This document shows positions 5,150 through 56,240 of a DNA stretch of 56,240 nt, one piece after another. Position 1 is the stretch's first letter, and each line of letters begins with the position of its first letter. The notes beneath the pieces were generated by a model. That model searched no databases, was not told where the DNA came from, and was given only the letters and a program-made list of their open reading frames with translations. Origin of the DNA: a virus; IMG/VR virus record IMGVR_UViG_3300004258_000002, positions 1-56,240 of that record, one strand, 5' to 3'. The translations under genes and the position numbers were made by a program.

Positions 5150-5266
5150 GCCTTGCATTTTTCAGATTATCGATCAATGTTGGGGATAGGCTAATACAAG
5201 ACCCGAAAGGGAAATAGGCCTGACTGTCTTTGAGCAGTTTCGAGTCCCCGACACCAAACGGAATAG

Positions 5267-8719: not shown

Positions 8720-9216
8720 TTGCCATACAAACCACAATAGTCGGCTATTCGGGCAAGCCCTGTACGCTATTTTCGGCATATGACCAAGAATCTCAGGTAT
8801 TGGTTGTGTCGGTCGAGGCGGCATACCGTCGGGACCGGCGCGATGGCTGTATGGTCATTACCAATGATGACAATATCGAACGTGACGGACTGTTCTCGGA
8901 AGAAGATTTGCAAACATCCATTACTTCATATTTCAGCATGCTGGGCAGTGTGGCCTTGGACGGAAAAAGCTCCAGGGTTGTGTTCGCCGACAAGGCGGCG
9001 CGGGCAAACCCGGCGCAATCGATTGAAAAAGACGGAATGGACTCGAGTGGTCAGCGCTACCGAATTGCCGAAACCATTACCAGTGCTCAAATTGCCGCAT
9101 TGGCAACCTGTTGGTATACCTCATCACGAGTCAACACCATAGACAAAATGCTAATCATGGCAGACAAGCTGTTAGACATAGAGCTTCTTAATCGTGGCGG
9201 GATTTTAACAATATGA
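8716..9216 (+). CDS. Hypothetical virion/neck protein
   Basis: 166 residues from the ATG at 8716, which overlaps the previous stop as ATGA. This start is preferred over an earlier one inside the preceding gene. Beta-rich N-terminus (IQTTIVGYSGKPCTLFSAY), then charged helices. It contains a SVALDG sequence resembling the recurrent LDSA motif. No family is recognised. Operon position suggests a head-tail joining protein. Confidence 0.5.
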   Translation: MIAIQTTIVGYSGKPCTLFSAYDQESQVLVVSVEAAYRRDRRDGCMVITNDDNIERDGLFSEEDLQTSITSYFSMLGSVALDGKSSRVVFADKAARANPAQSIEKDGMDSSGQRYRIAETITSAQIAALATCWYTSSRVNTIDKMLIMADKLLDIELLNRGGILTI

Positions 9217-9668
9217 ACCAATTAACTTATGCGCGAAAAACGTCGATACTTTTTGCTTTGGCTTTGATGTATTCGTGCTCGCATCCTGATCCTGTTATGG
9301 CGGTCGAATACGGAGATAAGCCAGCAACGGTAATCAAGGTACATGACGGCGATACTATCGCTGTATCAATACCTGATTGGCCCAGCGTGATCGGCAATAA
9401 AATTCCTGTCCGTGTTTATGGGATCGATACGCCGGAACTATTGGGCAAATGCGCCAATGAAAAAGCAAAAGCGCTATTGGCTAAAGCGTTCACTGAAAAC
9501 TTTGTCAATTCAAAGCTGGTCACGTTAAAGGCGATCAAGCGCGACAAGTATTTCAGAATCCTGGCAAGTGTTTACGTGGGCGATAGCAGCCTTGCCGATG
9601 GATTACTTAAAGCAAATCTGGCTCGACCGTATTTTGGCAGTAGCAAATCGAATTGGTGTGCGCCTTAA
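9213..9668 (+). CDS. Secreted thermonuclease-like (SNase-fold) nuclease
   Basis: 151 residues. An N-terminal export signal (SILFALALMYSCSHP, with a lipobox-like LMYSC) precedes an SNase domain. Family motifs are visible: VHDGDTIAV, RVYGIDTPELLG with the catalytic Arg, Asp and Glu region, and IKRDKYFR. Domain length is normal for the family. The enzyme degrades DNA or RNA with calcium. Its export signal implies periplasmic or outer-membrane action, perhaps against incoming or extracellular DNA. It is unusual inside a head-gene operon and overlaps both neighbours. Confidence 0.82.
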   Translation: MNQLTYARKTSILFALALMYSCSHPDPVMAVEYGDKPATVIKVHDGDTIAVSIPDWPSVIGNKIPVRVYGIDTPELLGKCANEKAKALLAKAFTENFVNSKLVTLKAIKRDKYFRILASVYVGDSSLADGLLKANLARPYFGSSKSNWCAP

Positions 9669-10003
9669 TGAGCGATGTAGACAGCCAGGCCGCAAAGGAC
9701 TTTTACAGGGAAGTACGGCGGTTTTCTGAGCGCACAAAGCTTTGGGAGAAAGCAATATTTCACGAAGTAACGCCGGATGAAATGCGGGACTTTACCCTTG
9801 TTTCGGCGCGTGTTTATGGTCGGCGCGATGAGTATTTGGCTGTTATGGCAGCGGCCGGTATAGATACTGTCGATCAGCCTTTGCCACAAAAGACGCTGGT
9901 ATTGCCGACCGACTCGCAGTTGAGCGTAATTAAGCGCCTGACCGGCTTTGAAAGCCGGGATGAATATCGTCAGGATGGCAAGCCAACTTGGAGTGAGGAT
10001 TAA
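9668..10003 (+). CDS. Hypothetical protein
   Basis: 111 residues from the ATG at 9668, overlapping the nuclease stop as TAATG. An earlier in-frame start at 9653 lies inside the nuclease gene and is not needed. Mostly helical and charged (KDFYREVRRFSERTKLWEKA), ending RQDGKPTWSED. The C-terminal part (PTDSQLSVIKRLTGFESRDEY) looks like a small helical module. No family is recognised. Confidence 0.5.
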   Translation: MSDVDSQAAKDFYREVRRFSERTKLWEKAIFHEVTPDEMRDFTLVSARVYGRRDEYLAVMAAAGIDTVDQPLPQKTLVLPTDSQLSVIKRLTGFESRDEYRQDGKPTWSED

Positions 10004-24916: not shown

Positions 24917-25452
24917 CAAGTTACGGAACCTATCCGGGGAAATACCCGGCCTTCGTCGAATCCTACGAAAAAACAACCCGGCAGGTGCGCGTGTCGATAC
25001 CCGGTATTACCGACGGAAAGGACGTGTTCCCGGTGTCCGAAATCGAATACCCAATAGGCGACAAGTCGCGCATTGTAGAGGGGCAGCATTCAACTGAAAT
25101 AGAAATTCTGCCCGGTGACCATGTTTGGGTGATGTTTATCCGCGGCGATGAACGCTGTCCGATTATTACCGGCTACCGAAACCCCAATGCGCCCAGTTCA
25201 AATTCAATCGACTGGCGCCGGTTTCATCATGCCAACATAGAACTGACAGCCGACGGCGTTATGCGCCTTAATGCGAATGCCATTGAGATTAATGCAGCGA
25301 CGACAATTACTACCAATGCGGCCAATGCCATTATTAACGCCAATACCGACATTAACGGATCAACGCTAACCCACAACGACAAGTCAGTGGGAGACAATCA
25401 TCAGCATTCTGGGGTTCAACCAGGATCAGGAAACACAGGGGCACCAACATAA
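24913..25452 (+). CDS. Baseplate central spike (gpV/gp45-like)
   Basis: 179 residues. An OB-fold region (VRVSIPGITDGKDVFPVSEI, HVWVMFIRGDERCPIITGY) is followed by an alternating beta-helix stalk rich in Asn/Ala/Ile/Thr (residues 118-155). The tip is VGDNHQHSGVQPGSG. The HxH at the apex matches the iron-binding tip of P2 gpV-type spikes. The spike pierces the outer membrane on contraction. Overlaps the next gene start by one base. Confidence 0.82.
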   Translation: MTSYGTYPGKYPAFVESYEKTTRQVRVSIPGITDGKDVFPVSEIEYPIGDKSRIVEGQHSTEIEILPGDHVWVMFIRGDERCPIITGYRNPNAPSSNSIDWRRFHHANIELTADGVMRLNANAIEINAATTITTNAANAIINANTDINGSTLTHNDKSVGDNHQHSGVQPGSGNTGAPT

Positions 25453-25955
25453 TGAACCAGCCAAGCAAATCAAATTTATTGTTCACCTTCGCCGATATGT
25501 CGGTTAAGGACAAAGCCGCCAAGCAGGTAATGAAATACTTCGCCAGAGCTGGCACTAATGTCGTATCGCAAGATGTATCGACGCAGGTAAAACGCACATC
25601 CGGTATCAGTTACCGGGAAATGCTATTGACCTTTGGTGACTCTCAAAAAGTGCTGTTTAGAATTAAGCAGTCTGGCGACATTTATCAAGTATTGCTGAAC
25701 GGCAAGCTGGTCCCGATCAAACGCCAAGATGACCATATTGGTGCTGTCACCGAGATAGTGCAAATGATGGACTCCGGACGCACTAAGTTTCAAGCAAAGC
25801 TGGCGGCCGCGGTGGTCAAGATTCCGCCGGCTATAAAAACAGCTGCACCGAAAATGCTTCAGGTGTTGACTGAAAAGCGCGATAGCCTGAGGTCGGCCAT
25901 TGCCGATGTTAGGGCTGAAATAGCGCAGATTCGCGGCGATTCTGCCAGTGCATAA
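25452..25955 (+). CDS. DarA N-terminal-like anti-restriction protein
   Basis: 167 residues. Visible pattern: LLFTFADMSVKDKAAKQVM, SGISYREMLLTFGDSQKVL, SGDIYQVLLNGKLVPIKRQ, then a helix with KIPPAIKTAAPKMLQVLTEK. This matches the DarA-type (defence against restriction) N-terminal domain of head-packaged phage proteins. The same domain seems to recur inside the large protein at 26134. DarA-family proteins are packaged in the virion and protect injected DNA. It overlaps the spike stop as TAATG. Confidence 0.6.
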   Translation: MNQPSKSNLLFTFADMSVKDKAAKQVMKYFARAGTNVVSQDVSTQVKRTSGISYREMLLTFGDSQKVLFRIKQSGDIYQVLLNGKLVPIKRQDDHIGAVTEIVQMMDSGRTKFQAKLAAAVVKIPPAIKTAAPKMLQVLTEKRDSLRSAIADVRAEIAQIRGDSASA

Positions 25956-26104
25956 TGCCCATGTAGCCCTGCATTACCGGTTCCTATGTTGGCTTTCCGA
26001 AAAGCAGCGTAAGCCAGGCGCAGCTTCACTATTACACGCTGGCGATGCGTGAAGAAGATCCGGAATGGAAGCCTGCCCACTTGCCCAGGAAAACCGGCCA
26101 ATAA
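25955..26104 (+). pseudogene. Small ORF interrupted by an amber at codon 4
   Basis: A start codon overlaps the previous stop as TAATG, but the frame reads Met-Pro-Met then TAG (25964-25966). After it, 45 uninterrupted codons give a protein-like sequence (CITGSYVGFPKSSVSQAQ, REEDPEWKPAHLPRK) to a TAA at 26104. No usable start codon exists in the open part before an internal Met. Its end overlaps the polyvalent-gene promoter. It is either a broken gene, a sequencing error, or a read-through product; I do not recognise the family. Confidence 0.4.
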
Positions 26105-26127
26105 TTCCACTAAGTCATGGCGATAAT
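26088..26127 (+). promoter_or_regulatory. Late-type promoter 5 (GGAAAAC box + GATAAT -10), polyvalent protein
   Basis: GGAAAAC at 26088-26094 within CCCAGGAAAACC lies 27 nt before GATAAT (26122-26127). The standard +1 would be 26134, which is the A of the start codon, so the mRNA may be leaderless. Confidence 0.65.
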
Positions 26128-26133
26128 ACCGTC

Positions 26134-28971
26134 ATGACTAAAAATATAATCAACGACTTCATTAAGATCGAAAACGCCGCGCATGACGGCGCTTTCGGTG
26201 ACAATCCGCGAGCAATCCCCACCGATGCTCAGTCCGTAGCGGGAAATTATAAACTTGGCCGGGTTACCGCTTACGGGCTACCTATCGCCATCGAACAACC
26301 ACGCAATTCATATCGTACCGGCATAGACCAGAAGACCGGCAAGCGCTGGACAAACCGAATGGCGGCGCATTATGGCTACTTTTCCGGCACCAAAGGCGCA
26401 GACGGTGACGGAGTAGACTGCTTTATCGGTTTCTATCCGCAATCGGAGTACGTTTACATCATCAATCAGTTTGTTGGTGGGCGTTTCGATGAGCACAAGG
26501 TTTGTCTTGCGTTTCCTGATGAACAATCCGCAATAAACGCATACCTGAATAGTTACGACAAAGGCTGGAAAGGTTTGCACTCAATTATTACAGCATCCAT
26601 CACCCAATTTAAGTGGTGGCTAAAAAACGGCAACATGAAGAACCCAATTGCACTCAATCATTTACCCTTTGAAGGACTTGAAACCATGAGACAACAAGTA
26701 GCCTGGGACAGCACTGAAAACCCAAAAGGCATGACCTTGGATAAGGTGCTGTACGAAATAAAGCGCGCCGATGGCGGCAATAATTTGATATTCGACGCAA
26801 TCTGTATGCGGGATATTTTGGATGATGCTGACAGCGTAATTACGTTTGATGCCCTGGTTACGCCTTACGCACAACTTGAGCGAAAGATGCAGGTACTAAA
26901 AAACATAATGGATCGTTCTGGTGGTGCAATCAAGACAGCGGCGCTACAGATCAGTGACCCATTCAAGCAAAGCGGAGTAGCGCAAGTGGCGGCGGTATTT
27001 GAGCTATCGGACGGGCAAACTGTATCGATATTTTTCCATAACCCGGATGTGGACCCGCGCAAGATCCAGCAAGGCGACGAATTGATCAGCTGGAAGTGGC
27101 TGCTCAATAAAAAGGACATCACAATTGTGGTTGCCCCAGAAAAAGGCGTTGACTTGAACATCATGAATGTTGCCCAGCGCATCATGAAGCTGGCGGAGAA
27201 AAACAGCGCGGCATTTATCCGTGCGAACGGTAAGCGGGCAGAAAAAATGCAGGCTATTGAGGATATAAAGGTTGAAATTGTTGGTCTTGAGGCTGAATTA
27301 AAGACAGTTCTACATGAACTTGAAGTCGCCAAGGTTGAGGCCGAGGATGTGGCGGTTGTTGACCCCGTTGTTGATCCACAGTCCGTTGAAGGTGATGACG
27401 CAGACCCAGTAATAACGCCTGAATCTGAATTAACTCCTGCCCCTGAGATTACTCCTGACCCAGCGGCCGAAACAGAAGCGCTAAAACAAGCAACCTTACA
27501 AGCTCTGGTTGATAATTTTGGCTGGAAAAATCAGTCAACCGTTGGCGGCCCGTTATTTTGGGTGACCAAAGAAATTGGCGGCGGACACAAGGGCGGAATG
27601 GTTAACCCTGATGGAATTCGCCGGGTAAGCGCCAAGTTTGAGGAATCTAGCATGATTGCCATGCACGGCGACAATGTTGTGGCTCGGTCATGGTTTGATG
27701 TTAGCAAAACCCCTGAAGAAAACGCAGATGAACTCAACCGGGTAGTTAATTCGATTGATCCCAATTATGTTAAGCCTGATGAAAGCGAGGTTGTTGACCC
27801 TAAGCCGGAACTAGAATTAACGCCTGTGCCAGAAATTACACCTGATCCTGAAGTAATTCCAGAACCAGAAACAATAATTCCAACTGAAGAGCAAACCAAT
27901 GAGCAAGAAAACGAGCAAGCAGAAATTACGCCGGAAACAGAAACGGGCGGAGCGGAAGGCGATTTAGTTTCGACCAAACCATTTGATGATTATGTGTCGG
28001 ATGCCAATGGCGATTTATATGATGCAGCAAAAAATTATTTCAAGTCAGAATTACAGAATAAGGTTGTAAGAACAGTTATTGGTGATGTTTATATTATTGG
28101 ATCAACCTTTACCGAAATGAAGCGTGGATTAAAACGCGATGAGATTAAGGCTAATTTATTTTCGTTTATTGAGCCTATCTTGACGAATGGATCTTATAAA
28201 GGAAAAGAGGAGCTAAATAAACTACGCAATGATAGTTTTATAGCATTTCACTTTTTTGAATTGGATAATATTAAGATAGGTGAGTATTTAGTCAATGCGG
28301 GTGTTACCGTTGCTCAGCGAGTAAGCGGAGAGCTTGAGTTTGATTTATCTGCCTATGGGTTAGGCCATAGTAATGAAGTAAGGTGGCAAAAAAGAAAAGG
28401 GGGTAGCCCGCTACTCCGGTCAAGAGCCGAAGACGAATTACCCCCCATAGAGTCAGCAGAGCCAGCTCTTGATTCAAGTTTAGATCAAGAAAGCGAATCA
28501 ATCAATTTAATCATCTTAAAAGTAACGGATTTAGATGGTAATGAGCTTGTAGAGTTGGAGGATGATGTTAATGAGCATGAGCAAATCGACGAACCTGAAA
28601 CAGAAAACGAACCCATACCGGTTACCGCCGGTAGTGACGAAACTATTACTCCTGCGGGCGAAAAGTCCGACGAAATGGATAGCCAAGTTAAAGAACCGAT
28701 CAACGAAGCCCAAGCGGTGGAAGATCTGGCACCGGCCGTAAGTGAAGCGGCAATAGAGCCACAAGTTAACCCAATAAAAGCGGGATTTGAGGCGGAGCTT
28801 GAGGCGCTAAAGCTTGAAACCGACATTGAGACATACGATAAGCGACTGGATGAGATTTATGAGCGCATTGAAGCTGCCGGGTTAGCTGAAGAAATGGATG
28901 CTAAACTGCATGAAACGGCTGACGTACTGACTGAGTTACTGATGGAGGCTGAGAAGAATTTCCAGGAATAG
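26134..28971 (+). CDS. Polyvalent protein: pyrophosphatase-like and DarA-like domains
   Basis: 945 residues from the ATG at 26134. Residues about 25-165 are the InPase-type polyvalent domain (AGNYKLGRVTAYGLPIAIEQ, SGTKGADGDGVDCFIGFY with spaced Asp, FDEHKVCLAF). Residues about 205-400 resemble the DarA N-domain found in the preceding small gene. Acidic Pro/Glu/Thr linkers separate later segments (about 405-460 and 555-615), and the C-terminus is a charged coiled coil. Such multi-domain proteins are packaged with DNA and injected to counter host defence. Contains ALDSS near residue 783 as a weak match to the candidate cleavage motif. Confidence 0.75.
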   Translation: MTKNIINDFIKIENAAHDGAFGDNPRAIPTDAQSVAGNYKLGRVTAYGLPIAIEQPRNSYRTGIDQKTGKRWTNRMAAHYGYFSGTKGADGDGVDCFIGFYPQSEYVYIINQFVGGRFDEHKVCLAFPDEQSAINAYLNSYDKGWKGLHSIITASITQFKWWLKNGNMKNPIALNHLPFEGLETMRQQVAWDSTENPKGMTLDKVLYEIKRADGGNNLIFDAICMRDILDDADSVITFDALVTPYAQLERKMQVLKNIMDRSGGAIKTAALQISDPFKQSGVAQVAAVFELSDGQTVSIFFHNPDVDPRKIQQGDELISWKWLLNKKDITIVVAPEKGVDLNIMNVAQRIMKLAEKNSAAFIRANGKRAEKMQAIEDIKVEIVGLEAELKTVLHELEVAKVEAEDVAVVDPVVDPQSVEGDDADPVITPESELTPAPEITPDPAAETEALKQATLQALVDNFGWKNQSTVGGPLFWVTKEIGGGHKGGMVNPDGIRRVSAKFEESSMIAMHGDNVVARSWFDVSKTPEENADELNRVVNSIDPNYVKPDESEVVDPKPELELTPVPEITPDPEVIPEPETIIPTEEQTNEQENEQAEITPETETGGAEGDLVSTKPFDDYVSDANGDLYDAAKNYFKSELQNKVVRTVIGDVYIIGSTFTEMKRGLKRDEIKANLFSFIEPILTNGSYKGKEELNKLRNDSFIAFHFFELDNIKIGEYLVNAGVTVAQRVSGELEFDLSAYGLGHSNEVRWQKRKGGSPLLRSRAEDELPPIESAEPALDSSLDQESESINLIILKVTDLDGNELVELEDDVNEHEQIDEPETENEPIPVTAGSDETITPAGEKSDEMDSQVKEPINEAQAVEDLAPAVSEAAIEPQVNPIKAGFEAELEALKLETDIETYDKRLDEIYERIEAAGLAEEMDAKLHETADVLTELLMEAEKNFQE

Positions 28972-29103: not shown

Positions 29104-29136
29104 ATTGGCACAATCGCCATTATCAGGATGCAACAA

Positions 29137-31854
29137 ATGCTATCGTTTTCAGAAAAAAGAACCTCCCAGCGCATTATCGTTGAGCAAAACAAAATCCTTT
29201 CTGGTTCTCCATTATTTACAGCTAAACGCAACGCCCAAAAGGTCAAGCTTGAGGCTATGGCTAAGTTGGGGATGGTTGCAAAAACTGTTGCAGGGATACA
29301 GCTTGAGCCAAGCGATGATGGTGCTTTTTATGAAATAAAAAATGCAACACCAGGGCGAGAAGATCAGTTTATTAATAAGTCACCGCTTTGGGAGCGCACC
29401 GGGCCCAGTGCGTCGTCAGAATCCGAAGATCAGACCTTCTTACTCCCAGAAGCCAAAGACGGCTTAAATAAAAGTGTAGACCAAAATTCAAATATCAGCA
29501 ACTCAAACTACGGGCTGCAAACCAGCGGCATTAAGACCAGAGAAAAAATAAACGACCAAGTTAAAGCCGTTGCCAATCAAATCCAAGCTGGGAAAGACCC
29601 GGCAACATTGACTGCTGACGAGGTGGCGCTGCTTAAGCAGTATTCCGGAAAGGGCGGCTTAACCATCAATTCGCAGTTCGAGTATTTTACACCAACCCCG
29701 GTTGCTGAGGGTACTTGGGATGCACTTAAAATTAACGGGTTTGAAAACGGGAATGTTCTTGAGCCGAGTACCGGTGCAGGCGTGTTCCTGGCTACCAAGC
29801 CGGCCGGCGTTATTGCCACCGGTACCGAGATTGACCCGACAAGCGCCACAGTCGCCCAAGTGCTTAACCCGACCGATCAAGTTTCAAACCAGTCTTTTGA
29901 AAAGCTGGCGGTCAATGCCCCGGATAACAGCTTCGATGCAGTCATCGGCAACGTTCCGTTCGGTAACGCGCGCGGTCCGTCAGCGCACGATGATCCGGCC
30001 TATAAATCAGAAAAGCTGATTGAGCGCTATTTTGTCAACCGGGTTATTGATAAGGTTCGTCCGGGCGGCTTGATTGCGTTGGTTGTGCCGGTCAATATCA
30101 TCCGGGCCAAAGGCAAGGCTTGGGAAAAGTTTCGCATTGCAATCAGCAAAAAAGCCGAGTTTTTGGGCGCCCATAAGCTTCCTTCGAAAACTTTCGCCAA
30201 GCAAGGCACCGATACCGTTGTTGATGTTCTGGTTATGCGTAAGCACAGCGCCGATTTCCTGAGCACTATTAACGACCTTCCATTCGATACATTGATAGCG
30301 GCCAATGTGGTATGGCCGGAATTCATCGAAGGCCGATACTGGCAAGGCGAAGGCAAGCGCTTTATTCATGGTGAATTTGTACCCAAAGACCCGACCAAGT
30401 TCCGCGACACGGACAAGGTTATTGCCGGCGAGAATTTTACTGACGAGTCATTAAAGCGCGCGCTGGCTGTTAAGTTTTCCAGTCGCATTGACTGGACCAT
30501 GTTGGATGCCGCCGAGCCCATTGTCCGTAATTATACCGAAGGCGACCGCCGGGAAATGAACGGCCTTGATTATGAACTGAAAGACGGCGTATGGATGAAG
30601 GTCGCTTATACAGACAATACGGTTGCGCTGGATTCGGCCATCTATGGCGTTGAATCTATGACCGCATTGCAGTCAATCATGCAATCGGAATCGGGCATTT
30701 TGTCGCTTGGCTGGGGGCATATTGAGTCAATAGCAGAAACATTCCCGAACATGGTCCCGCAAAGCGTTAAAGATGCGCTCAAGTTCTCCCGCCTACAGCC
30801 GGATGATGTGCAGTGGAGGGCATTCCGAGGCGCTGTCATCGGAGCAAAGATTGAGGCCTATACCAATGGCCGAACCGACGATCCAGGCGAATTGGCTGAA
30901 TTAAAAGAGCTGATTCTGCATGAAGTTATCCAGTATGGCCCCCCGAAAGATATTAAGGGTTTGGTACTGGCCGGAAACGACTCTAAGCGCCTGGGCATGT
31001 TTATCAACTCAGTGGACGAGTCCGGTAATTTCTCCGCTTTGATCGAAGCTGGCTCCATCCAGCAAGAAACCGACAGCTTTAACTCTAAAGACGTGCTGTC
31101 GATTATCGATTACTTGTTCGAGCAGAACCAATACCCGATTGAACTTGGGGTCGTACTATCACTTTACGACGGCGACATGCTCATAGAGGACCTTGGCGAC
31201 ATAGTTACCAAAATACCTGGACTGGCCGTTTCTCCGGATGGATTCATTTACCCATTCGACCAATACTGTTCTGGGCTGATTTATCCAAAACTCAACGCGA
31301 TGCGCGATGCGATGGTGCAGGAAAAGGACAAGCGCATTATTGAGCAGTACAAAAAGCAAATTGAAAGCATTGATACTAAGTGCCGCAAAACGCCGACCGA
31401 AAATATTACGTTTGGGATGCGGCAAAAATGGTTCAACCATACTGCTTACGCGCTGGAGTTCTTGAAAGCCAACGGCTATAACCGAGCCATCGACTATAAC
31501 GAAGAGCGCGGCGAATTCGTATCCAACAGCACCGGTGGCATTGCATCACAAATCGTCAATTATCTGAACGATAAGCCGGTAATGGGCGGCGTCAAGGTAT
31601 CTGAGTACAAAGACGGTATTCGTGCGCTGGAAGAGCAATTTGACGCCTTCATGAAGTCGCACGCCGATAGCGAAGACTTGACCAGCGAATATAATCGTAA
31701 ATTTAACGGTTATGTCGAGTTCGATTACAGTTCAAGTGATTTGAAGCTGAAAAATATCGATGATAGATTGGTTCCGCACAGCTATCAAAACGAGGCGATA
31801 CGACGATTATCACGTGAAGGGATCGGTATTTTAGGGTTCGATGTCGGCCTGTGA
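29137..31854 (+). CDS. DarB-like protein, N-terminal methylase half ending at in-frame TGA
   Basis: About 905 residues from the ATG at 29137, which has TCAGGA eight bases upstream; the ATG at 29128 overlaps that site. An N6-adenine methyltransferase domain is visible: GNVLEPSTGAGVFLATKPAG (motif I), TGTEID, and FDAVIGNVPFGNARG (motif IV of NPPY type). A VALDSAIY sequence near residue 498 matches the candidate protease site. The frame then runs to FDVGL and stops at TGA in the middle of a Walker A motif, with the helicase continuing in the same frame. DarB-type methylase-helicases are injected to block type I restriction. Confidence 0.72.
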   Translation: MLSFSEKRTSQRIIVEQNKILSGSPLFTAKRNAQKVKLEAMAKLGMVAKTVAGIQLEPSDDGAFYEIKNATPGREDQFINKSPLWERTGPSASSESEDQTFLLPEAKDGLNKSVDQNSNISNSNYGLQTSGIKTREKINDQVKAVANQIQAGKDPATLTADEVALLKQYSGKGGLTINSQFEYFTPTPVAEGTWDALKINGFENGNVLEPSTGAGVFLATKPAGVIATGTEIDPTSATVAQVLNPTDQVSNQSFEKLAVNAPDNSFDAVIGNVPFGNARGPSAHDDPAYKSEKLIERYFVNRVIDKVRPGGLIALVVPVNIIRAKGKAWEKFRIAISKKAEFLGAHKLPSKTFAKQGTDTVVDVLVMRKHSADFLSTINDLPFDTLIAANVVWPEFIEGRYWQGEGKRFIHGEFVPKDPTKFRDTDKVIAGENFTDESLKRALAVKFSSRIDWTMLDAAEPIVRNYTEGDRREMNGLDYELKDGVWMKVAYTDNTVALDSAIYGVESMTALQSIMQSESGILSLGWGHIESIAETFPNMVPQSVKDALKFSRLQPDDVQWRAFRGAVIGAKIEAYTNGRTDDPGELAELKELILHEVIQYGPPKDIKGLVLAGNDSKRLGMFINSVDESGNFSALIEAGSIQQETDSFNSKDVLSIIDYLFEQNQYPIELGVVLSLYDGDMLIEDLGDIVTKIPGLAVSPDGFIYPFDQYCSGLIYPKLNAMRDAMVQEKDKRIIEQYKKQIESIDTKCRKTPTENITFGMRQKWFNHTAYALEFLKANGYNRAIDYNEERGEFVSNSTGGIASQIVNYLNDKPVMGGVKVSEYKDGIRALEEQFDAFMKSHADSEDLTSEYNRKFNGYVEFDYSSSDLKLKNIDDRLVPHSYQNEAIRRLSREGIGILGFDVGL
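31852..31854 (+). other. In-frame TGA replacing the Walker A glycine
   Basis: The frame reads GFDVGL, TGA, KTLSSFALQAY. The family motif is G-x-G-K-T, so a GGA-to-TGA change would explain it. No other stop interrupts the joined frame from 29137 to 35637. Confidence 0.8.
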
Positions 31855-31896
31855 AAAACCCTAAGTTCGTTTGCGCTGCAAGCTTACAACGAACAA

Positions 31897-34800
31897 ATGG
31901 ACCGGTCTAAGCGGACTTGTATCGTGGTTCCTGATGCGGTGCTGGCGAATTGGTATCATGAACACCGGGCGTTTTATAAAGACACATCGAAGATGCTGTT
32001 TGTTGGCATGTCGCCTAAAACAAATAAAGACGGCGGCATTCAACGCGAGCCAATACTGGACGAGCAGGGCAATCCAAAGCTGGTCAATGATAAGGAAATC
32101 TATCAAGACATCCTGACTAAGGACAACAAGGACATTATCTGGGATAAGATGCACAAAATCCCGCAGTCTAACTTTTCCTTGGTGGTGATGTCGCATTCTC
32201 GGTTCGGCATGATTCCGGTAAAGGGCGACACCAAGCGTAAATACGCAGACCTGATGATGTCGCGTGAGTTATTAAGTGCCGGCGAGGCCGACAAGCTGAT
32301 GAGCGCGAATCCAGGGAAAGTATCGTATGCAGATGCGCAAAATAATGACCGGTTAGGGCAGAAATACTCGGACGAAGGCACGACCAAGCAGGATGCTTAC
32401 CCATATTTTGAAGATATGGGTTTTGATACGGTTATCGTGGATGAGGCGCATTTTTTTAAAAATTCATTTTCTCCGGGTAAAGAATCGCAACGCATAGCGT
32501 ACCTGCCAACACCGAACCCATCACAACGCGCTATCGATATGTCGCTGAAAATGTCCCATATCCGGGAGATTAATGGCGGTAGGGGAGTAATTTTACTTTC
32601 AGCCACTCCTGTTACAAACAGTCCTTTGGAGATTTACAACATGCTGTCTTTGTTGATCCCAATGGAAGAGTTTGAGGCGTTTGGGGTGTACACGCCTGAT
32701 GATTTCGTACGCGTGTTCGGCGATATTCAGCACATAGAAAAAATGAAGGTATCCGGGGAAATCGGCAATGTTGATGCAATGGTTGGCTTCCAGAACCTTG
32801 ACGGTTTGCGTTCGCTGTTCCACAAATATTCCATTATCAAGAATGCCGACGATGTGAAACTGCCATTGCCGGATTCAGAAGAAGTTCAGGCAACCGTGGA
32901 ATTGTCGGATGAGCAACAGGAAATTTATGTAGGGTTAAGAGCTGAAGCCAAAGACGCCACATCAGGCGATCAGAAGGTACGCGAAGCGGCAAGGCCGCTT
33001 TTTTCCATCATCCGGGACATGGATAGGACTACGACAGACCTTGATATGTTCCACAAGCGCATTACCTTTATTTTCAAATCAGAGTTTAAAGATGCTGTTA
33101 ATTCAGCGCTGGTTAAGATGCCAAAAACCGTGCAGCGCAAAGAATACGACTCCGATCAGGAAAAGGATGTTGTTATCACAGTACCGTTTGAATATGAAGT
33201 CACCGAGAATAATGGCAAGATTATTGTGATGATGACCGATGCCGGCGAAGAGGATATGGTTAATGCTATCCAGAAAGTCGGTATTCCAGAAGATGAGGTA
33301 GCGCACCCAATTACGCCAAAGTATGCCGAGTTGCTTAAAAATCTGGCTCATGAAATGGAATTGGGCGGCAAGCAGATCATTTTTATCGAGGAAAAAACCC
33401 AGCACAAAAAGTTGGCTCGAATCCTGGTCCATTTTCTGCCGATTACCTTAGCGAACATTGGCATTATCAATGCAACCGATGCCGCCGGCGAAAAGTTGCA
33501 GCGTATTTCCGACGATTATAATGCTGGAAAAATCAAGATTGTGATTGCCAACAAAAAAGCCGAGGTCGGAGTAAACCTGCAAAAAGGTACGTCAGCGATC
33601 CACCATTTAACTTTCCCTTGGGTACCGGCCAGTATGCAGCAGCGCAATGGCCGAGGCATCAGGCAAGGCAATACCGTCGAAACAGTGCGTATTTACCATT
33701 ATATCGGCAAGGGTTCGTTTGACCTATTCAGGCTAAACCTGATCAACCAAAAAGGCAGCTGGATTAACGATATTTTGCGCGGTACCGAGTCCAATATGGA
33801 AAGCAAGGGCGACGGGCATTTGTCGGCCGAAGATGTGATGGTGCTGCTGTCGGATAATCCAGAAGAAGCGCGCGCGAGAATGGAAGAGTCCAAGGCCAAG
33901 CGCGAGAAGGCTAAAAAGGGAAAAGCCGATAAAGCGATGGTGATTAACTTGAACCAGCTTATCGAAGCGCGGCGCAAGTTATCCTTGCTGTCTGGATGGA
34001 AAGCTGACGAAAAAACCAAGATTGAAGACGAAATCAGCAAGCTGAATGCCCGCATCGAGGCCCACCAAGACGACGGCACCGAAGATGCCAAAAACAAACT
34101 GATCGACTTAAAACGCAAGCGTACGATTCAGGCGAATAAACTATCAGGGCTGGATGCCAAATACCAAGCTATCGAAGAATCGGCGGCGTCTTCCGTGAAG
34201 CAGAAGACAGTATTCCTAAAGGCTAAGGCTGCTTCCGGTGAACTGCCGTTTGATACCGGTGCCATTGATAACCCGGATTCCGTGTTGATTACTCGGGATG
34301 GCCGGGTAATACGTGCCGGCATGGTGTTCGATTTCACCACGGAAAAATACGGCGGAACGGCCATTACCGGGTTGCGCCTGGTTTCGGCGATTGATTCAAA
34401 AACTCAAGCGGTATCGTTGCTGTCCAAGGGCTCAACCTATGTGCAAAATATCGGCCTGGGCGAGCTTTACCGTTACGCTATGAAGACGGTGGCGATGACA
34501 ACCGAAGAATGGGATCTAATGTCTAAATTGTCGCGGGAATTATCGCTACAGGAAGTCATTGACCTGGGCCGCGATACCGTTGATAAATTCAAGTCCGAAA
34601 TCAAGCTGAAGTACGCTGAATATTACCTTGTGGATGCCGGTGACGGCGAAGTGCTGATAGTAAAAAACAACAGCTCTTATGAGACACTGGACAAAAAGGC
34701 GTTCACTTGGCCGGAACTGAAAAACGAGGCGCAAAAATGTAGCGTTGCCAAGTATTACCTGGGCAATACGCTGTATGGTGTTGATGATTTTATGGCGTTA

Positions 34801-35637
34801 TTGTTTGGCGCTGAATGGAAAACGGTGATTGAGCAATTTGCCGAAAATGCGACTCAAGAGGATGTTATTAAATCCTGCAATGCGGCTTATCTGGACATTG
34901 TTAAGCGTGTTTCTAGTGGCGATGAATTTCTATTTATGTCATCAAACGCCAATTACAACCTATCGAGTGTTATAAATCAGATTGTACCGGATATTACTGG
35001 CGACAACCGGCAGCAAATAAAAACTTGGGTTTCCGAGTTTATATCCGGCCGTAAAGTCTGGTACGACGAAGAGAGTATTAAGCGCAAAGCCGAAGCCGAC
35101 CAAAAAGCACGAGAAGCGCTTAAAAGCAGTCCTGACTACAAAGAGGTTCCTGCTGATGTGACCAGCCGACTCGCAGCAAAAGGCATTACAGCAAAATACA
35201 ATGCCAGTTCTATTTATGCACGCCGTAATTGGCCTGCTTTCTCGTTGCTATTACTTCAAGATGAAAGCGGTAAGAATGGCTTGCTGTTTGCTACCAAGGA
35301 CCGGTTAAAGAGTTCATTTGGCGCTCAGTTTGGTGCCGATATTTCCGGTGATTTCCGGGGCGCTTGGTGGTATGTTTCATCTAGCACTGATATTAATGCG
35401 CTGGTTTCGGTTGTGCTTGATGAAAAAGAAGTAGAGCTGGTTAATGCCAACAAGGGCGCCCCAGAAAAACTTAAAATCCCGGCTGGCAAGGTTGCTGTTG
35501 GCGATATGTTAGCGGGATTTACCGTAAATAGCCTAGGAAAAACCTGGGAAGCCAAAAGCTATGATATAAGTTCAGTAAAACGAGATTCCGGCTTCGATAT
35601 TGAAGAAGGTGATTTAATTCAATATGCAAGGTTCTAA
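31897..35637 (+). CDS. DarB-like protein, SNF2-type helicase half
   Basis: The same frame as the preceding methylase half continues here; coherent sequence in fact begins directly after the TGA at 31855. From the first Met (31897) it has 1246 residues. Helicase motifs: TVIVDEAHFFKNSF (DEAH box), VILLSATPVTNSPLEIYNML (motif III), KIVIANKKAEVGVNLQKGT, and MQQRNGRGIRQGN (motif VI). Charged coiled coils and unassigned domains follow. There is no good ribosome site before 31897, and a product starting there would lack Walker A. Function therefore depends on whether the TGA is real, read through or an error. Confidence 0.72.
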   Translation: MDRSKRTCIVVPDAVLANWYHEHRAFYKDTSKMLFVGMSPKTNKDGGIQREPILDEQGNPKLVNDKEIYQDILTKDNKDIIWDKMHKIPQSNFSLVVMSHSRFGMIPVKGDTKRKYADLMMSRELLSAGEADKLMSANPGKVSYADAQNNDRLGQKYSDEGTTKQDAYPYFEDMGFDTVIVDEAHFFKNSFSPGKESQRIAYLPTPNPSQRAIDMSLKMSHIREINGGRGVILLSATPVTNSPLEIYNMLSLLIPMEEFEAFGVYTPDDFVRVFGDIQHIEKMKVSGEIGNVDAMVGFQNLDGLRSLFHKYSIIKNADDVKLPLPDSEEVQATVELSDEQQEIYVGLRAEAKDATSGDQKVREAARPLFSIIRDMDRTTTDLDMFHKRITFIFKSEFKDAVNSALVKMPKTVQRKEYDSDQEKDVVITVPFEYEVTENNGKIIVMMTDAGEEDMVNAIQKVGIPEDEVAHPITPKYAELLKNLAHEMELGGKQIIFIEEKTQHKKLARILVHFLPITLANIGIINATDAAGEKLQRISDDYNAGKIKIVIANKKAEVGVNLQKGTSAIHHLTFPWVPASMQQRNGRGIRQGNTVETVRIYHYIGKGSFDLFRLNLINQKGSWINDILRGTESNMESKGDGHLSAEDVMVLLSDNPEEARARMEESKAKREKAKKGKADKAMVINLNQLIEARRKLSLLSGWKADEKTKIEDEISKLNARIEAHQDDGTEDAKNKLIDLKRKRTIQANKLSGLDAKYQAIEESAASSVKQKTVFLKAKAASGELPFDTGAIDNPDSVLITRDGRVIRAGMVFDFTTEKYGGTAITGLRLVSAIDSKTQAVSLLSKGSTYVQNIGLGELYRYAMKTVAMTTEEWDLMSKLSRELSLQEVIDLGRDTVDKFKSEIKLKYAEYYLVDAGDGEVLIVKNNSSYETLDKKAFTWPELKNEAQKCSVAKYYLGNTLYGVDDFMALLFGAEWKTVIEQFAENATQEDVIKSCNAAYLDIVKRVSSGDEFLFMSSNANYNLSSVINQIVPDITGDNRQQIKTWVSEFISGRKVWYDEESIKRKAEADQKAREALKSSPDYKEVPADVTSRLAAKGITAKYNASSIYARRNWPAFSLLLLQDESGKNGLLFATKDRLKSSFGAQFGADISGDFRGAWWYVSSSTDINALVSVVLDEKEVELVNANKGAPEKLKIPAGKVAVGDMLAGFTVNSLGKTWEAKSYDISSVKRDSGFDIEEGDLIQYARF

Positions 35638-36139: not shown

Positions 36140-36172
36140 TAGCCAAACTACCATCATAGCGGCTAATTATGG
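36133..36172 (+). repeat. Perfect 12-bp inverted repeat over portal promoter and start codon
   Basis: CCATAATTAGCC (36133-36144) and GGCTAATTATGG (36161-36172) are exact inverted copies separated by 16 bases. The left arm covers the predicted -10 and the right arm contains the portal ATG. This is the layout of an operator straddling a transcription start. No Shine-Dalgarno is visible before the ATG. Confidence 0.7.
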
Positions 36173-37704
36173 CGAAAATCTTCTCACAGCTTGGTATATC
36201 AAAGCGTCAATTTATGACGACGCATGTTGATCCTGCTAAGCAAATTTCACAGGCCGATACATTCCTTTACGGTTCTGGAACCACCACAGTAGCAACGCTG
36301 TTAGGTTCCGGTAGGCGCGTAGCCAAGGCCCGGCAACTGATCTATGAAAAGTGGTCGACCATGGAGGCTGACGCAATATGCTCATCGGCTTTGATGCTAC
36401 TTGTTACCACGGCACTCGGCGGGCATGAAACCACCGGGCAAATGGTCTTCATCGAAAAAAACCCAAAGCACCAAGACGACAAGCGCATGACTGCTATGGT
36501 CGACGAGATTGCCGAAGATTTGACCGGGCTATTTAATCGTGTCGCCTATCAAATGGCCTATACCGGGTCCGCATTCGGCGACTCTTATGCACGTATTTAC
36601 AGCAATGGCCGTGGCGTTATCGACCTTTACACGGACGAAATGGTTCGTCCGCCACTGGTACAGCCGTTTGAGCGCGGTAGTCGCACTGTCGGCTACGCGG
36701 TCTATGTCGGAGAGCGTAATTTCGAAAAACTGGACGTTACCCAGCTGGCCCGGTTAAAAATGCCGCGTACCCAGTGGGTGCCGCAGAACGGCGTTGTCGA
36801 AAAATCATTGCGGATTGCGATTACTGAAGACGATCCTGATAAGCTGCCAATTATGCCCGCTATGGCCGGCGGCTCATTGCTTTATAACGCCGAAGAATCA
36901 TATGACAACATGGTTGCATCCTTAATGGGCTTGGTCGGCCAGCGCTGGATGGATTCGATTGATGAAAAAATGCTCTCGGTCAATCTGGAGTCCATGACCG
37001 TTGACCAACAAGACAAGTTCGTCGGCTCGATTGTAAAAATGCTCAAGCGGTCAAAGGAGCTGGCCGAAAATGCCGTCAAGGGCGGAAAGCCGATCATGGA
37101 GCGTATCCGGCATATCATTCCGGTATTCAATGAAAAGCAAGTCACGCAAATTGACGCATCCGGCGCACAAACAGGCCGTTCCGGGACTATTTCCATTGAA
37201 GATGTCATCCTACATGCCCGGCTAATGTCCGGCGCTATTGGCGTTGATTTGGCGATGCTGGGTTTTGCCGACCAGCTCAGCGGCGGACTTGGTGATGGTG
37301 GTTTTTTCAGGGTATCGGCTCAGGCCGCAGAGCGCGCGCGGGTGATTCGTTCGGCACTGGCCGATTTCTTCAACGATGTCATCGATATTCATACCCTTAA
37401 GCGCTATGGCGTGGTTTTCCCGGCCAATGACCGGCCTTGGGCAATGAATTTTTATGGCTCCATTTCCTCACTCGAAGCCGAAAGGCAGCGCAGCAAAGTA
37501 GACGGCGCCAACGCGGGAATGGTCTTGGCGCAAGCCATTCAAATGTTCAAAGACATGGGCTGCACGTCTGAAATTTTAGCGGACATACTCAGCAAAGAAT
37601 TTCTGCTAGACGAAGAGCAAGCCAAAATGTACGCCAAGATTTTGGATGTTAAGCCGCCCGAGCCGCCTGAAGGCGATGGCGGCAATGGCGGTGGGTTTCG
37701 ATGA
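36169..37704 (+). CDS. Portal protein
   Basis: 511 residues. Helical wing and stem segments typical of portals: KARQLIYEKWSTMEADAICS, FNRVAYQMAYTGSAFGDSYA, DLYTDEMVRPP, and a late RVSAQAAERARVIRSALADF stem. Length fits gp20-type portals. The dodecamer forms the DNA entry vertex. The C-terminus is Pro/Gly-rich (PPEPPEGDGGNGGGFR). It lies under its own late-type promoter, far from the terminase genes, and overlaps the next gene by four bases. Confidence 0.72.
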   Translation: MAKIFSQLGISKRQFMTTHVDPAKQISQADTFLYGSGTTTVATLLGSGRRVAKARQLIYEKWSTMEADAICSSALMLLVTTALGGHETTGQMVFIEKNPKHQDDKRMTAMVDEIAEDLTGLFNRVAYQMAYTGSAFGDSYARIYSNGRGVIDLYTDEMVRPPLVQPFERGSRTVGYAVYVGERNFEKLDVTQLARLKMPRTQWVPQNGVVEKSLRIAITEDDPDKLPIMPAMAGGSLLYNAEESYDNMVASLMGLVGQRWMDSIDEKMLSVNLESMTVDQQDKFVGSIVKMLKRSKELAENAVKGGKPIMERIRHIIPVFNEKQVTQIDASGAQTGRSGTISIEDVILHARLMSGAIGVDLAMLGFADQLSGGLGDGGFFRVSAQAAERARVIRSALADFFNDVIDIHTLKRYGVVFPANDRPWAMNFYGSISSLEAERQRSKVDGANAGMVLAQAIQMFKDMGCTSEILADILSKEFLLDEEQAKMYAKILDVKPPEPPEGDGGNGGGFR

Positions 37705-55361: not shown

Positions 55362-56240
55362 ATGCTTGGCTTATCGCCGTTTGGTGCTTCGCCATTTGGC
55401 GGCGAGCCTGATGACATAATAATTGGTATAGCCGGCGGTGCTGTTAGTGTTGCCAGCGCTACTGGTTCGGCTACCGATAAGCTAAGCCTATCCGGTTCCG
55501 CTACAGCAACGGCGACAGACTCCAGCACCACATCGCTCAAAGTTTCGGCAGCGGGTTCGGCCGGTGCCGTTGCCAGTGATGGTGGCGTTGCTGTTGCGGT
55601 AGACAGCGTCAGAAGCGCCAACATATCGGCATCTATGTTTGGGGCGTCATCGTTTGGTGCGGAACCATTCGGTGCGGAGGGAGAAGGCGTTATCAATGGG
55701 TTTGACGGCCTCTTCGGAAGTGTTGCGAGTGCGGCAGGGGCAACCACAATAACCCTCGGTATATCCGGTTCTTTCGCAGCAACGGCGAATGAATCCGGCG
55801 TAGCATCGATAAGCCTATCAGCGGCGGGTTCCGTCACTTCTGTTTCGAGTGATACGGGAGCCGTAAAAAACACTCTCGGAGTATCTGGATCTGTCGCATC
55901 ATCATCGTCGGATTCCGGCGCAGTATCGCTAAAAATCCCCCTCTCGGGTTCTTCCGCTTCCGTTTCCAGTGATGCAGGAGTCGCCACAAATACCCTCGGC
56001 GTATCCGGTGCAGCAGCAGCTATGGGTTCTGATGCAGCGACACTCGGCGTATCCATAGGTGGTTCGGCAACTTCCGTTTCAAACGATAGTGGCGCCGCGG
56101 TAATTATTGATAGCGTTACTTGTGCCAGCATATCGGCTTCAATGTTTGGAGCGTCGTCATTTGGGTCGTCGTCATTCGGTGCTGAGGGTGATGGTGTAAT
56201 AAATGGTTTTGATGGCAGTGCTAACAGCATTGCCAGTGGT
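55362..56240 (+). CDS. Repetitive fibre protein, runs off the window
   Basis: The plus-strand frame is open from the ATG at 55362 to the end of the window (293 residues seen); the stop lies outside. The sequence is Ser/Ala/Gly-rich with short repeats of a SGS-x-A-x-x-S-x-S-D-x-G-A-x-x-L type, and a longer block (ASMFGASSFG, then GVINGFDG) occurs twice, 169 residues apart. Such repeats suggest an extended fibre. The ribosome site is weak. An antisense frame of similar length exists but reads as a shadow of these repeats. Confidence 0.65.
   Translation, partial: MLGLSPFGASPFGGEPDDIIIGIAGGAVSVASATGSATDKLSLSGSATATATDSSTTSLKVSAAGSAGAVASDGGVAVAVDSVRSANISASMFGASSFGAEPFGAEGEGVINGFDGLFGSVASAAGATTITLGISGSFAATANESGVASISLSAAGSVTSVSSDTGAVKNTLGVSGSVASSSSDSGAVSLKIPLSGSSASVSSDAGVATNTLGVSGAAAAMGSDAATLGVSIGGSATSVSNDSGAAVIIDSVTCASISASMFGASSFGSSSFGAEGDGVINGFDGSANSIASG
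55620..56215 (+). repeat. Direct repeat in the fibre gene, period 507 nt
   Basis: An 89-base block at 55620-55708 recurs at 56127-56215 with several synonymous differences. Both encode a SMFGASSFG and EG-GVINGFDG segment. The copies are 507 bases (169 codons) apart, so the fibre may be built of such units. Confidence 0.7.

Follow-up and report, generated by a model that had tools for sequence, protein, structure and literature searches.

The window analysed here, IMG/VR virus record IMGVR_UViG_3300004258_000002 at its full length of 56,240 nucleotides, carries a long darB-like frame in a P1-like neighbourhood together with ulx-, portal, darA- and hdf-like genes. The features of the locus are as follows.

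25452..25955, plus strand: Hdf-like antirestriction / head protein (DarA_N), intact
26065..28971, plus strand: DarA-like polyvalent protein (InPase, DarA_N, LPD3), intact
29128..31854, plus strand: upstream part of darB, encoding the N-terminus and an N6-adenine methylase domain (N6_Mtase/Eco57I; motif IV NVPF)
31852..31854, plus strand: internal TGA in place of the second Walker A glycine, which the three closest relatives encode by GGA and most remaining records by other glycine codons
31855..35637, plus strand: downstream part of darB, an open SNF2-type helicase frame ending in TAA
35624..36046, plus strand: Ulx-like antirestriction protein, its start overlapping the darB end by 14 bases
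36169..37704, plus strand: portal protein, completing the gene order darB, ulx-like gene, portal

Vibrio phage-plasmids have a similar arrangement, with a small gene and then the portal gene after darB. The virion genes of the window phage stay open. The phage is a P1-like myophage. Its host is probably a methanotroph of the gammaproteobacteria, judging from the related loci of Methylocucumis oryzae and Methylovulum, which lie in genomes of such bacteria. Elsewhere in the window, positions 5179-5260, between the terminase-like and anti-repressor genes, match the Rfam family sRNA-Xcc1 (65 bits, gathering threshold 53).

The darB frame extends from 29128 or 29137 to 35637, about 2,167-2,169 codons. 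Both candidate starts are ATG codons, and the one at 29137 is the better, with AGGA upstream. Reading from 29137 to 35637 gave 2,167 codons, a count that includes the internal TGA and the terminal TAA, and no other stop, as the preliminary description had claimed. The TGA is preceded by 908 codons from the ATG at 29128 or 905 from that at 29137, and was read from the window sequence in the context GILGFDVGL, stop, KTLSSFALQAYN, where it occupies the position of the second Walker A glycine (GFDVGL-stop-KT). The PHROG profile phrog_11801 aligned with both halves, covering profile positions 91-892 before the stop and 894-1649 after it, with exactly one profile position absent, at the TGA. A homologous long frame spanning a stop in this way is far beyond chance. 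The sequence and the profile together confirm the earlier claim of an in-frame TGA at the Walker A glycine of a DarB-like gene, and the helicase motifs said to be intact downstream were all found 3' of the stop (Ia, II (DEAH), III (SATP), V and VI). Every detail of the preliminary description was borne out. The frame thus places an N6-adenine methylase domain upstream of an SNF2-type helicase, as in DarB-like proteins, while the Walker A motif needed for ATP hydrolysis has lost its invariant glycine to the stop. Window darB is therefore an interrupted member of the DarB-like methylase-helicases typified by the P1 Dar system.

The same site was compared across 91 aligned records. Glycine (GGT, GGC, GGA or GGG) was found in 90 of them, and the sole TGA was in a second record of the window phage itself. 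The three closest relatives, which share 68-80% protein identity with window DarB, are record G002, Methylocucumis oryzae and a Methylovulum MAG, two of the three lying in methanotroph genomes. All three have GGA, which supports the inference in the preliminary description of one G-to-T change (GGA to TGA) and answers its call to look for the residue in relatives. The stop is thus absent from relatives while homology continues in frame beyond it, the pattern of a pseudogene formed by nonsense mutation. Among 237 Methylocucumis-family genomes, the search yielded two loci known already and a third, distant one, and no phage closer than the known relatives. The darB of Methylocucumis oryzae Sn10-6 (L004/L098 7447-13771) contains several frame changes, which reflect either decay or sequencing indels.

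One relative differs within the motif itself. The DarB of a Nitrosomonas MAG (L099 6248-13696) contains an in-frame insertion of ~366 residues within Walker A (GLGK^T), at about 8903-10000. The insertion carries LAGLIDADG motifs and ends in HN just before the T, and is a typical intein. The window TGA sits two codons before this insertion point, and the window has no intein. Because this intein lies exactly in Walker A, the window gene might be imagined as an allele protected at an intein site, or the TGA as a switch read through at low frequency, with the truncated methylase as a functional packaged product. We regard these ideas as highly improbable.

The TGA was also present in IMGVR_UViG_3300024966_000001 (73,380 bases), in which the window corresponds to positions 13507-69746. 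The two sequences are identical throughout the 56,240 bases, and their contigs end at different points. At its right end (55362-56240; L087 8995-10817) the window stops within a long repeat-rich open frame, and the contig break there is attributable to 300-base copies that, in the longer record, share 96% identity and lie 666 bases apart. A 41-base direct repeat (95%) was also observed towards the right end of that record (L087 11586-11626, 12719-12759). A 27-base search found no other near-identical IMG/VR record, and no near-identical DNA was found in phage and plasmid records. A literature search likewise turned up no paper that names the metagenome 3300024966. Since the second record has the same TGA, a one-off random base-call error is unlikely, with the reservation that the assemblies may share reads. 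A broader artefact of assembly, amplification or base calling would mean that the population has a glycine codon and the consensus is in error, or that the assembly captured a minority or amplified variant. Identity over 56 kb is compatible with this reading, as both records may go back to shared reads or to one pool of amplified DNA. G-to-T is also a typical DNA-damage change, and the change at this codon is of that type. However, two records with different contig ends agree on the TGA, and the other homology-checked frames show no broken gene. We therefore consider an artefact unlikely; the independence of the two assemblies is the main residual doubt.

If the TGA were translated as glycine, tryptophan or selenocysteine, through functional recoding or readthrough of this lone codon, some full-length DarB would be made. 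Such decoding would suit a downstream frame that is intact, retains every helicase motif and has been under purifying selection on the window branch. TGA is, however, a regular stop in this genome. About ten homology-checked genes in the 73-kb record end in TGA, including the DnaC-like, ulx-like and portal genes, and the homologues of these genes terminate there or close by, which bears out the earlier judgement that a general code change is unlikely. TGA is not used as a sense codon across genes in the manner of code table 25, and darB is the only checked gene in which homology crosses a TGA for a whole domain. A tRNA scan of the 73-kb record found no tRNA genes and hence no suppressor tRNA. 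At the TGA site no credible Rfam element was found, including a SECIS hairpin just after the codon, and RNA folding around the stop was no better than that of shuffled sequence. No relative shares the TGA, and the gammaproteobacteria in which related phages lie use the standard genetic code. Tryptophan or selenocysteine would in addition displace the invariant P-loop glycine. General recoding was rejected on the combined evidence of stop usage, the tRNA scan, Rfam and folding, and functional decoding of the single codon is very improbable. An antisense promoter-like match at the TGA was also rejected, because matches in the region were no more numerous than in shuffles.

The age of the lesion was approached through substitutions on the window branch. 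A three-way comparison of the window, G002 and the Methylocucumis record gave non-synonymous/synonymous counts of 26/86 (0.30) before the stop and 31/114 (0.27) after it, compared to 0.40 on the sister branch and an expectation of 2.4-3.3 without selection. The window-branch ratios in this comparison lie close to or below those of the other branches. In the other two trios the window branch gave 0.40 and 0.57, and the comparison branches 0.21 to 0.51; all of these branch ratios are crude and uncorrected for multiple hits. Relaxed selection on the helicase half after the stop was not seen on the window branch, and this half has been under selection for most of that branch. Because purifying selection on it shows no loss, the stop must either be recent or still permit some full-length DarB to be made; a recent stop is far simpler. 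The open downstream half fits a recent event, and would also fit readthrough.

The position of the stop was weighed against chance. In window darB, 820 single-base changes can create a stop, and ~3.7% of these fall in any of ten catalytic-motif stretches. The placement in Walker A is striking, yet it is not improbable after the fact, and because that share of possible nonsense changes falls in motifs, a stop on the ATP-binding motif can arise by chance and needs no special cause. Lone lesions also occur in other darB genes. Two P1-type genes that are otherwise open each carry a single nonsense codon, TTG to TAG in L059 and GAA to TAA, also a G-to-T change, in L068. At least three others (L033, L076 and L107 / Vibrio vulnificus plasmid p48/10) carry a lone frameshift each. 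L108 and L106 were left out as evidence, as their many frame breaks resemble sequencing error or advanced decay. Some of the lesions in other records may be sequencing errors, and a lone lesion in so long a gene is not exceptional.

Collectively, these results suggest that darB of this P1-like myophage has very probably undergone a recent nonsense mutation, a single G-to-T change from GGA to TGA that leaves a truncated DarB. Of the options raised in the preliminary description, a recent null mutation is favoured over recoding by the tests of code and selection. Translation most likely ends at 31854, which would yield a fragment of about 905-908 residues that retains the N-terminus and the adenine-methylase domain and has no SNF2-type translocase. 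In P1 the 30 N-terminal residues suffice to direct a protein into the capsid (PMC9024508). Little or no antirestriction by DarB would then be left. A survey of polyvalent proteins argues that methylation of the DarB type strictly depends on the SNF2 motor/ATPase (PMC5512222), so that the allele is probably a null with respect to DarB. With the Hdf-, DarA- and Ulx-like genes intact, other Dar functions may remain, for example in head assembly, where some of them act (PMC12810830). Reinitiation giving a working helicase was rejected: the first in-frame ATG after the stop, at 31897, has no clear Shine-Dalgarno sequence, and a product started there or further on would be without Walker A.

It could also be proposed that the stop is adaptive, favoured over full-length DarB for separating the domains and making a packaged stand-alone methylase. 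The stop does fall between methylase and helicase, and the fragment retains the portion that packages DarB in P1. However, none of the relatives among the 91 records is split at this site, the beginning of the first RecA-like lobe would stay attached to the fragment, no start preceded by a good ribosome site occurs after the stop, and the ATPase is argued to be necessary alongside the methylase. We consider this adaptive separation extremely improbable.

Loss of darB by nonsense mutation is also consistent with its dispensability. In a CRISPRi map of P1, darB is non-essential and the portal gene essential (PMC10695390), and virions are still made by P1 delta-darB (PMC9024508). Since darB would be useful only where a host has suitable type I restriction, a null allele could persist. 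Because the start of the ulx-like gene overlaps the darB end, polarity is possible, and the stop could lower the output of both that gene and the essential portal gene. Against a null allele, selection should oppose such polarity unless other promoters or low-level readthrough help.

The observation is real and its explanation ordinary, and a change of the genetic code is without support. The locus offers a modest natural case in which a P1-like phage has probably lost a helicase-methylase antirestriction protein. It is also a caution against equating a single stop codon in a catalytic motif with recoding before the code, relatives and selection have been tested. Should the truncated protein prove to be packaged and active, the functions of the two DarB domains could be told apart.

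Among known systems, the TGA-to-glycine code of Gracilibacteria/SR1 (table 25) resembles the window in having TGA where glycine is expected, at one codon here. In contrast to that code, the window genome uses TGA as a normal stop, and its related phages lie in gammaproteobacteria. The closer counterpart is DarB of P1/P7, a head-packaged methylase-SNF2 helicase antirestriction protein. Window DarB shares its domain order and 39% identity in the helicase core, and its gene likewise lies beside a ulx-like gene and the portal gene with DarA- and Hdf-like genes nearby, whereas at Walker A the window copy has a stop and P1 has glycine. The interrupted darB genes of other P1-like phages and phage-plasmids, namely L059, L068, L076, L033 and p48/10, each show, like the window, one lesion in a frame that is otherwise open, although their lesions lie at other places.
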